Both the position numbers and the translations under genes were made by a program. This document shows, one piece after another, positions 39,073 to 49,034 of a stretch of 64,000 nucleotides of DNA; the first letter of the stretch is position 1, and each line of letters starts with the position of its first letter. The DNA comes from Methanorbis rubei. GTDB lineage: Archaea; Halobacteriota; Methanomicrobia; Methanomicrobiales; Methanocorpusculaceae. Where the stretch lies: contig NZ_JAWDKB010000003.1 of assembly GCF_032714495.1 (NCBI RefSeq), positions 62,001 through 126,000 of the forward strand, written 5' to 3'. Below the pieces are notes generated by a model. It ran no database searches, was not told the origin of the DNA, and saw only the letters and a list, made by a program, of their open reading frames with translations.

Positions 39073-39700
39073 CCTTCATTTCCGTGATGTTCACGTCTGC
39101 TCCGTGATGTTTTCTCCGTGTGATACCACGAAAAGATTTAGTCTATTTTTTCTGGAAAAAATAAGCGGGTCAGTGGCGAATGGGCATGATGAGAAAAGAA
39201 AACCGCAAATCCACGCAAATCTCGCCCTTCGGGCTCCACAAATCGCATTTGCGAACCGTCGCTCTCATCCCGCCGGATTCCGGCGGGCTCGTTGCTATCG
39301 CAACCGCGACTGCAAATGCTGGGCGGCGCCAGTCGGGCGCCGCATGTTGTTTATCGGATAATATTCATGGTGTGTCATTGTGTCTGAAACTTTCAAATTG
39401 TCCTCACTTCGGATGCGATCCATTCAACCTATGGCGGCGCCCGACTGGCGCCGTCCAGCGTTTGCCGTCGCGGTTGCGATAGCAACGAGCCCGCCGGAAT
39501 CCGGCGGGATGAGAGCGACGAAATAGCAAACGCGATTTGCGGAGCGAGCATCAGCGAGCGAGATTTGCGTGGATTTGCGGTTCCTTTTTCAAGCGAAACC
39601 ACGCTCACCACTTACCCGATTACTTTTTTCCAGAAAAAATCGACTAAATCTTTTTGTGAGATTACATTTCCGTTCGTTTTCCGTGGGCGGAGCTACGACA
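39073..39700. repeat. Family A-prime half-element interrupted by element C1
   Basis: 39073-39125 (CCGTGATGTTCACGTCTGC, then TCCGTGATGTTTTC) and 39661-39700 (TTCCGTTCGTTTTCCGTGGG then CGGAGCTACGAC) together match the right arm of the complete A-prime copy at 43205-43285. The left arm of A-prime is missing. C1 occupies the space between the two pieces. Confidence 0.55.
39126..39660. mobile_element. Family C palindromic element with terminal inverted repeats, copy C1
   Basis: The termini CCACGAAAAGATTTAGTC (39126-39143) and GACTAAATCTTTTTGTG (39642-39658) are inverted repeats. Internal arms of about 220 bp are also inverted: CGCAAATCCACGCAAATCTC, then CCCGCCGGATTCCGGCGGG and GGCGGCGCCAGTCGGGCGCC against their complements. 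The roughly 80-bp loop is unique (TCGGATAATATTCATGGTG). No transposase is present. It looks like a MITE-type or hairpin element. Copy C2 is at 46928. Confidence 0.75.
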
Positions 39701-46927: not shown

Positions 46928-47470
46928 CCACAAAAAAGATTTAGTCGATTTTTTTTCTTGAGAAAAAGTAAGTGGGTAGGTGGCGAGTGGGCATGATGAT
47001 GAAAGAAAACCGCAAATCCACGCAAATCTCGCTCGCTGATGCTCGCTCCACAAATCGCATTTGCATTTCGTCGCTCTCATCCCGCCGGATTCCGGCGGGC
47101 TCGTTGCTATCGCAAACGCGACGGCAAATGCTGTACGGCGCCTGTCGGGCGCCGCCTATCGTTTATCGGTAATATTCATGGTGTGTCACTGTGTCGAAAA
47201 CTTTCAGATTGTTCTACGCTTCGGATGCAATCCATTCAACCCATGGCGGCGCCTGTCGGGCGCCGCCCAGCATTTGCCGTCGTGTTTGCGATAGCAACGA
47301 GCCCGCCGGAATCCGACGGGATGAGAGCGACGAAATGCAAATGCGATTTGTGGAGCGAGCATCAGCGAGCGAGATTTGCGTGGATTTGCGGTTTTCTTTC
47401 CTCATCATGCCCACTCGCCACCTACTCACTTACTTTTTTTCCGAAAAAAACGGACTAAATCTTTTCGTGG
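46928..47470. mobile_element. Family C palindromic element, copy C2
   Basis: The terminal inverted repeats are CCACAAAAAAGATTTAGTC (46928-46946) and GACTAAATCTTTTCGTGG (47453-47470). Internal arms match C1: CGCAAATCCACGCAAATCTC, CCCGCCGGATTCCGGCGGG, and GGCGCCTGTCGGGCGCC in both arms. The adjacent outer flanks are themselves imperfectly inverted (GTTTCATCATGGTGATT against GATCGTCAGGATGAAAT). About 543 bp with no credible gene. Confidence 0.8.
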
Positions 47471-48048: not shown

Positions 48049-48076
48049 ATTGCGCATAATAGACATTATGCGCAAA
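48049..48076. other. dif: Candidate dif (Xer recombination) site
   Basis: A 28-bp site: left arm ATTGCGCATAA, 6-bp spacer TAGACA, right arm TTATGCGCAAA. The arms are 9-bp perfect inverted repeats at the inner side. The 11-6-11 layout and the GCGCATAA / TTATG half-sites match known dif sites (compare the E. coli half-site GGTGCGCATAA). It lies 40 bp before the xerA gene. The function is inferred from layout and position. Confidence 0.75.
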
Positions 48077-48116
48077 CATTATCTGCATACAGCTCCAATA
48101 TCTGAACGAGTGCACC

Positions 48117-49034
48117 ATGGCCCCGCCCAAACGAACCTTCAGCATCTGGATACCTCGCTACCTCAGCAGCATCGAAACCAAAAACTACTCTGAGAATACT
48201 ATAGAAGCCTACGGCCGCGTCCTCAAACTCTTCGCACGCTACAAAACCTACCTCCTTGAACATGACGGAGCAATTCCTGAAAACGGTGCAGCACTCGCCG
48301 ACTACGGCATGGGCGCTGATGTTGACGCTGACGCCTACGAAATCAGCGACTTCTTCACCATCATCCGCAACGAACGCCACTTAAGCCCCGCAAGCCTGCA
48401 CCAGTACGACTCGGCCATCAGCTCCTTCTACCGACACTTAATCGCCCAGAACATCGTCGACGCAAACCCCATGGACCGTGTCGAACGGCCGAAAATCAAA
48501 GATCGCGAACTCAAATATCTCAGACACAAAGAGGTCATGAACTTCATCGCCTCCCTTGAAAATCCCCGCGACGCACTCTTAATCAGAACCATCTACGCAA
48601 CCGGCATGCGTGTCTCCGAACTTTGCGGCCTCCGAGCCGAACACATCAACTTCAATGAGCAAACCATTCGTGTCAGAGGTAAAGGCGGAAAGATCAGAAT
48701 CGTCTTCTGCGACCCTGACACCCTTGCAATGATCAGAGATCATCTGGACGAAAAAATCGAAGGCCCGATCTTTCTTGGCAACCGCGGGGCTGCAATCTCT
48801 CCCCGCACCGTTCAACACATCTTCAACCTCCACGCTCCCGCAGGCATAACGCCGCATAAAATCCGACATAGCTACGCCAGCGAACTCTACAAACGATCCC
48901 ACAATCTTCGTGTCGTCCAGGAAAATCTCGGTCACAACTCGATTCAGACCACTGAAATATACATCCACACCGACCTTGACGAACGCAGAAAAGCATACCA
49001 GAACTACTTCCCTCTCGCATCGGGTGGGGAGTAA
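48117..49034 (+). CDS. xerA: XerA tyrosine recombinase
   Basis: This 305-residue XerA-type recombinase resolves chromosome dimers at dif. The SAM-like N-terminal domain (NYSENTIEAYGRVLKLF) has an insert at about 50-75. The catalytic set is complete: Arg165 in ATGMRVSELCGLR, Lys in VRGKGGKIR (about 189-192), His247 and Arg250 in PHKIRHSYA, His273 in LGHNSIQTTE, and nucleophile Tyr282 in IYIH. It belongs to a plus-strand gene series that begins here. Confidence 0.93.
   Translation: MAPPKRTFSIWIPRYLSSIETKNYSENTIEAYGRVLKLFARYKTYLLEHDGAIPENGAALADYGMGADVDADAYEISDFFTIIRNERHLSPASLHQYDSAISSFYRHLIAQNIVDANPMDRVERPKIKDRELKYLRHKEVMNFIASLENPRDALLIRTIYATGMRVSELCGLRAEHINFNEQTIRVRGKGGKIRIVFCDPDTLAMIRDHLDEKIEGPIFLGNRGAAISPRTVQHIFNLHAPAGITPHKIRHSYASELYKRSHNLRVVQENLGHNSIQTTEIYIHTDLDERRKAYQNYFPLASGGE

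Follow-up and report, generated by a model that had tools for sequence, protein, structure and literature searches.

A candidate dif site in the promoter of the recombinase gene xerA in Methanocorpusculum and other Methanomicrobiales

The 28-bp element at positions 48049–48076 of the window, the 64-kb stretch of DNA analysed here, is with high confidence the chromosomal dif site of this Methanocorpusculum, as judged from its sequence and from its conservation in relatives. It lies just upstream of xerA, and its right arm adjoins a TATA-like element of the xerA promoter. In the wider reading that we propose, and to which we give an even chance, dif in the Methanomicrobiales would serve a double purpose, as recombination site and as XerA operator, so that how much recombinase is made would depend on how far its own target is occupied. 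Virus-like elements without an integrase would enter dif through the host XerA, and each entry would replace the operator's distal half but leave the promoter-side half-site in place. Such elements would be the first in archaea described as exploiting Xer. The features concerned are as follows.

48049–48076, plus strand: dif, the probable 28-bp XerA recombination site (11-6-11), assigned from its exact sequence, single copy and order-wide comparison
48049–48059, plus strand: left XerA arm, ATTGCGCATAA, which covaries with the right arm across the order
48060–48065, plus strand: core (spacer), TAGACA, with strand exchange expected at its borders
48066–48076, plus strand: right XerA arm, TTATGCGCAAA, which has the BRE position in the xerA promoter and is proposed as a XerA operator
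48077–48084, plus strand: TATA-like element, CATTATCT, assigned from its position
48117–49034, plus strand: xerA, archaeal XerA tyrosine recombinase of 305 aa, assigned from NF040815, PF00589 and the invariant catalytic columns

The site and its recombinase

On the plus strand the site reads ATTGCGCATAA-TAGACA-TTATGCGCAAA, with a gap of 40 bp to the xerA ATG at 48117; the initial annotation, which had placed an 11-6-11 site 40 bp before the recombinase gene, was exact in both coordinates and sequence. The layout is that of an archaeal dif, two 11-bp inverted arms flanking a 6-bp core (28 bp), and the core is the sole part that gives the site a direction. The dif-like half-sites noticed at the outset are borne out by the minus-strand reading, which is more dif-like than the orientation given then and matches E. 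coli dif at 22 of 28 positions. This is the top 28-mer of the window; the next unrelated one reaches 17/28, and the best in six shuffled windows 18–19. On these comparisons, the resemblance of the site to dif is not a matter of chance.

The inner portion of the site is a perfect 11-bp inverted repeat around a 4-nt centre (TTGCGCATAAT/ATTATGCGCAA). In 20 dinucleotide shuffles of the whole window, perfect repeats of at least 11 bp with 3–10 nt spacers occurred three times in total, with none or one per shuffle. The real window nevertheless has four further perfect 11-bp repeats that are independent of this one, some resembling terminators, and symmetry alone is therefore weak evidence for dif. 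The genome count gave a single copy: the exact site occurs once in the organism's own assembly, a 96% complete draft of 1.83 Mb in 15 contigs, in which no second copy was found at up to three mismatches and the reversed control gave no match. Most relatives have one copy, and two are present in the element carriers G085 and G125, described below.

The xerA product scores 244.3 bits against the XerA equivalog model NF040815 (curated cutoff 220), and contains the tyrosine recombinase domain PF00589; among solved structures it matches 4a8e and 5hxy, the XerA proteins of Pyrococcus abyssi and Thermoplasma acidophilum respectively. Its catalytic residues R165, K189, H247, R250, H273 and Y282 (R-K-HxxR-H-Y) are invariant across eight XerA proteins of the order. 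Comparison with named relatives assigns the window to Methanocorpusculum, and the closest named match is to M. petauri, with 90% protein identity. The same genome carries a second XerA-like recombinase gene (locus L003, 1200–1876, G000:C6) that stops soon after HMFRHI and is apparently truncated before the catalytic tyrosine.

We envisage that two XerA molecules would occupy the 11-bp arms, which are nearly identical, and would cleave where the arms meet the 6-bp core; strand exchange with another dif copy would then resolve chromosome dimers. We infer that dimer resolution is the function of the site in the cell.

Conservation, inversion and chromosomal position

The initial annotation had remarked that dif and xer are not necessarily adjacent in archaea, a remark to be qualified for the Methanomicrobiales, in which adjacency is the rule and not a peculiarity of this genome. 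A dif-like 28-mer precedes xerA in 112 of 124 loci from six families of the order; the 124 are those genomes of the order for which xerA and a stretch upstream of it were available, and a site was counted if it lay no more than 70 nt from the start of the xerA alignment. The site is intact at 73 of 80 named loci, a set that overlaps the first and is not independent of it. Within Methanocorpusculum it was found in 22 of 25 genomes, and in 12 of 12 near-complete ones, directly before xerA wherever both are on the same stretch. The arm pairs vary by family yet change together (TGCGCATAA/TTATGCGCA, TGCGCAGAA/TTCTGCGCA, GTCGCAGAA/TTCTGCGAC, GACTGAGAA/TTCTCAGT), as would be expected if one recombinase binds both members of a pair; in Methanoculleus the arms are less symmetric (GCGGGGAA/TTTACCGC). 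In the other five families, the distance from the end of the site to the downstream codon for a conserved Phe near the XerA N-terminus is about 50 nt in most genomes; Methanocorpusculum has a different spacing. The comparison across the order shows the arrangement to be old and kept under selection.

Two of four genomes from another family of the phylum also have dif-like sites shortly before an XerA-like gene (L100 and L101; GTGTCGATAAA-TAGTAA-TTTATCGACAT and ATGTCGCAAAA-TAGGTA-TTTTACGACAT), and for this reason the adjacency may be older than the order. Complete dif-like sites were seen off the xerA contig as well, at L093 784 (G143:C5) and L096 2949 (G103:C1). Because xerA of G143 additionally has a site of its own, the extra G143 site may belong to a plasmid or element.

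Well-supported sister pairs in the xerA tree of the genus have cores that are reverse complements of each other: this genome (G000, TAGACA) and its closest relative G070 (TGTCTA), G118 (TATGTA) and G134 (TACATA), and G138 (TATGTA) and G090 (TACATA). The same holds for the same-genus pairs G012/G036 (TAGCAA/TTGCTA) and G020/G061 (TGACCA/TGGTCA). To arise by substitution, the difference between G000 and G070 would take four changes within four bases, with both flanking arms unchanged; the other pairs are weaker singly, because two substitutions suffice for each. The 23 sites of the Methanoculleus type, whose arms are asymmetric, included none with an inverted core. Apparently the core has been inverted several times between sister species, and either hairpin-type inversion or misaligned XerA exchange might have been the route. 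This suggests that in symmetric sites, in which the core alone would give direction, direction is free to drift. The arms of loxP are symmetric too, and in Cre/loxP the spacer alone gives direction; the likeness is one of geometry only, the biological role being unrelated.

The clade to which this genome belongs has the gene order glmM–DUF5806 (minus), dif, xerA (plus), DUF2148, and most other named Methanocorpusculum loci have dif, xerA, DUF5806 and glmM, all plus; at those of the latter loci that were inspected, a GHMP-kinase-like gene lies upstream. Judging from these gene orders, the dif–xerA pair is inverted as a block between two clades of the genus, and the earlier suggestion that the block moves as a unit is upheld by this inversion in place. 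An inversion of the pair as a unit is also what might be seen if xerA had arrived on a mobile element and the site were that element's attachment site, with the recombinase as the element's integrase and the pair as a mobile cassette, and the recombinase does adjoin the site as in integrative elements. We consider this explanation very unlikely. The protein exceeds the XerA equivalog cutoff; XerA is near-universal in the order, with one per genome at the NF040815 threshold (105 of 108 good genomes); the glmM–DUF5806 neighbourhood is largely conserved; and no second att copy or element was found in this genome. A chromosomal dif remains our preferred reading.

The proposal that the site may mark the terminus region fared less well. 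It draws weak support from two closed congeners, G054 and G042, in which dif and the main orc1 lie 154 and 145 degrees apart respectively. The order as a whole does not support dif as a consistent terminus marker: over 25 closed genomes the angle to orc1 spans 43 to 170 degrees, with a median of 105. In G054, moreover, the AT and GC skew changes sign at about 0.87–0.95 Mb, near the antipode but some 100–170 kb beyond dif at 0.77 Mb; this skew is weak and comes from sampled 20-kb stretches that make up about 28% of that genome. The skew of G042 has no clear pattern. Because each genome has several Orc1 genes, the terminus is hard to predict. In many closed genomes of several families a second Orc1/Cdc6 gene is found 24–107 kb from dif/xerA, which may reflect either a shared neighbourhood or an origin near dif.

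A large palindromic repeat, with 206-nt arms that are 94% complementary, occupies 46934–47465 upstream of dif and is found again at about 39131–39658. We considered the inverted repeat at 46951–47450 as a dif accessory and rejected it; it belongs to a dispersed MITE-like family that has roughly a dozen further copies elsewhere in the genome and is not tied to dif.

The xerA promoter and elements inserted at dif

The TATA-like element is weak in this genome (CATTATCT) and clear in most relatives (TTTATAAA/TTTATTTA). Such a stretch lies about 2 nt 3' of the right arm in nearly all genera, as in TTCTGCGCAAA-cc-TTTATAAATT, and the likely xerA start codon follows it by some 20–25 nt. With so short a distance to the TATA-like stretch, the right arm would occupy the BRE region of the xerA promoter. 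This position is the basis on which we lean, with modest confidence, towards repression of xerA by XerA through the right arm. XerA bound there would shut out TBP/TFB and so limit its own synthesis, a competition suggested by the geometry, and one sequence would be both recombination site and operator.

Autoregulation had been proposed initially from adjacency, and comparison with relatives backs it, both in the placement of the arm beside the TATA box and in the retention of the half-site alone after dif has moved. The full dif is displaced from xerA by 0.6–1.3 kb in six Methanocalculus genomes, by 0.8 kb in G069, by 8.5 kb in G085 and by 8.7 kb in G125, and is on another contig in G103; in all of these cases the right half-site TTCTGCGCAAW still stands before xerA. 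The promoter 12-mer ATTCTGCGCAAT is invariant at 12 of 12 positions in seven Methanocalculus genomes, in which the 40 nt upstream of it average 3.6 of 7 (near random) and the 29 nt downstream 4.3 of 7. That the full dif and the promoter half-site are maintained separately argues for two functions.

The retained half-site could instead be kept for basal promoter function, simply as the BRE of the core promoter and free of XerA control; this would bear on the operator part of our reading and not on the identity of the site as dif. The half-site is indeed at the position expected of a BRE, beside a TATA-like box. Its sequence, however, is exactly that of a dif arm, the conserved block extends over 12 nt, and it tracks the changes of the dif arm between families (TTATGCGCAA, TTTACCGCAA, TTCTGCGACA, TTCTCAGTAA), as expected for a XerA site and not for a fixed BRE. 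We therefore consider a BRE without XerA control to be possible but rather unlikely, and prefer a XerA operator.

In G085, the site at the far end is ACTTCGCAGAA-TGTCTA-TTCTGCGCAAT, and that 8.5 kb closer to xerA is GTACCTCAGAA-TGTCTA-TTCTGCGCAAA. G140 has the corresponding empty site, an uninterrupted ACTTCGCAGAA-TGTCTA-TTCTGCGCAAA, and the two genomes agree on either side of it (far flank, 95.8% identity over 1,029 bp; near flank, 67/67). The halves are exchanged at the core, the far end combining the host left arm with the element right arm and the near end the element left arm with the host right arm. G125 has the same two-site pattern, with the core TAGGTA and an element of 8.7 kb. G011 has a third related element, placed between dif and the glmM/DUF5806 genes, whose end sites, 8.76 kb apart, share the core TGACTA; its far site is weak in the element-side arm, and the empty-site comparison covers G085 and G125.

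These elements (loci L091, L092 and L214 in G085, G125 and G011 respectively; 8.5–8.8 kb) encode a packaging-ATPase-like protein, which matches a PHROG terminase family (E 1e-10), together with a zinc-finger membrane protein, candidate capsid proteins and several small uncharacterised proteins. Searched against 150 genomes of the order, the packaging-ATPase-like protein matched three, G085, G125 and G011, and no relatives of it were found in viral contigs, phage records and genome contigs. A XerA profile run over all six frames found no tyrosine recombinase in the three elements, and the element proteins tested against Pfam matched no family above cutoff. On the Methanoregulaceae contig L296 a similar foreign left arm, TAACCTGAGAA, precedes xerA, and this may be a fourth case.

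The simplest reading would be that the elements were inserted by the host XerA acting at dif, in the manner of bacterial Xer-exploiting phages, since half-exchanged copies and an empty site in a relative are what host XerA cutting at dif would leave. From these sequence patterns we think it quite likely that the elements of G085, G125 and G011 are Xer-exploiting elements. The literature searched, mostly open-access papers, yielded no precedent for archaeal elements at dif; a Thaumarchaeota survey cites only the bacterial review.

The insertions also bear on whether the palindrome might be only an operator or promoter element of xerA, bound by XerA or by another regulator, and not a chromosomal recombination site. 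Across five families it keeps a constant distance to the TATA-like box and to the start codon, which would suit such a role, as would the half-site kept alone in the Methanocalculus promoter. Yet the core of the site is precisely where the elements are inserted, the complete 28-mer persists off the promoter in the displaced genomes (0.6–8.7 kb away or on another contig), and the site resembles bacterial dif at 22/28 positions. We consider an operator alone highly improbable, and retain a chromosomal dif whose right arm may double as operator.

Relation to known Xer systems

With these sites a whole order of methanogens gains a defined dif, which genetic work in these organisms can also use as a defined docking site, and archaeal Xer control without FtsK becomes a promoter experiment. 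The insertions are natural evidence of recombination at these sites, and suggest how viruses or plasmids of archaea that lack an integrase may integrate.

The Thermococcales system, as described by Cortez et al. (2010, PMC2958812), has a single XerA and a 28-bp 11-6-11 site in one copy per genome, and XerA recombines dif in vitro. Single recombinase, site layout and copy number are as found here; there, dif is not beside xerA, whereas here it lies in the xerA promoter. That study contrasts the Euryarchaeota, in which dif and xerA are not adjacent, with the Sulfolobales, in which they are close, and the Methanomicrobiales break this euryarchaeal rule. The xerA/dif modules of the Sulfolobales, a distant lineage, have dif close to xerA as here; in the passages that describe them (PMC2958812; PMC5357621), no promoter overlap, half-site retention or dif insertion is mentioned.

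XerS/difSL of streptococci and XerH/difH of epsilonproteobacteria also use one recombinase, although the recombinase families differ from that found here (PMC5357621). XerS is genetically linked to its site, the atypical 31-bp difSL, and the system is FtsK-dependent (PMC5357621). The linkage is as here, but the protein encoded by xerA, at 99 bits, is far below the XerS cutoff of 267.

As for elements, Bacteroidetes microvirus proviruses (PMC3091885) and the non-tailed vibriophage NO16 (PMC9966536) integrate at dif without a recombinase of their own. Like these two, and like CTXphi and GGI, the elements described here are recombinase-less, lie at dif and have one dif rebuilt at one end. The bacterial elements use XerC/XerD, whereas those found here are archaeal, lie beside xerA and replace half of the promoter-side dif.
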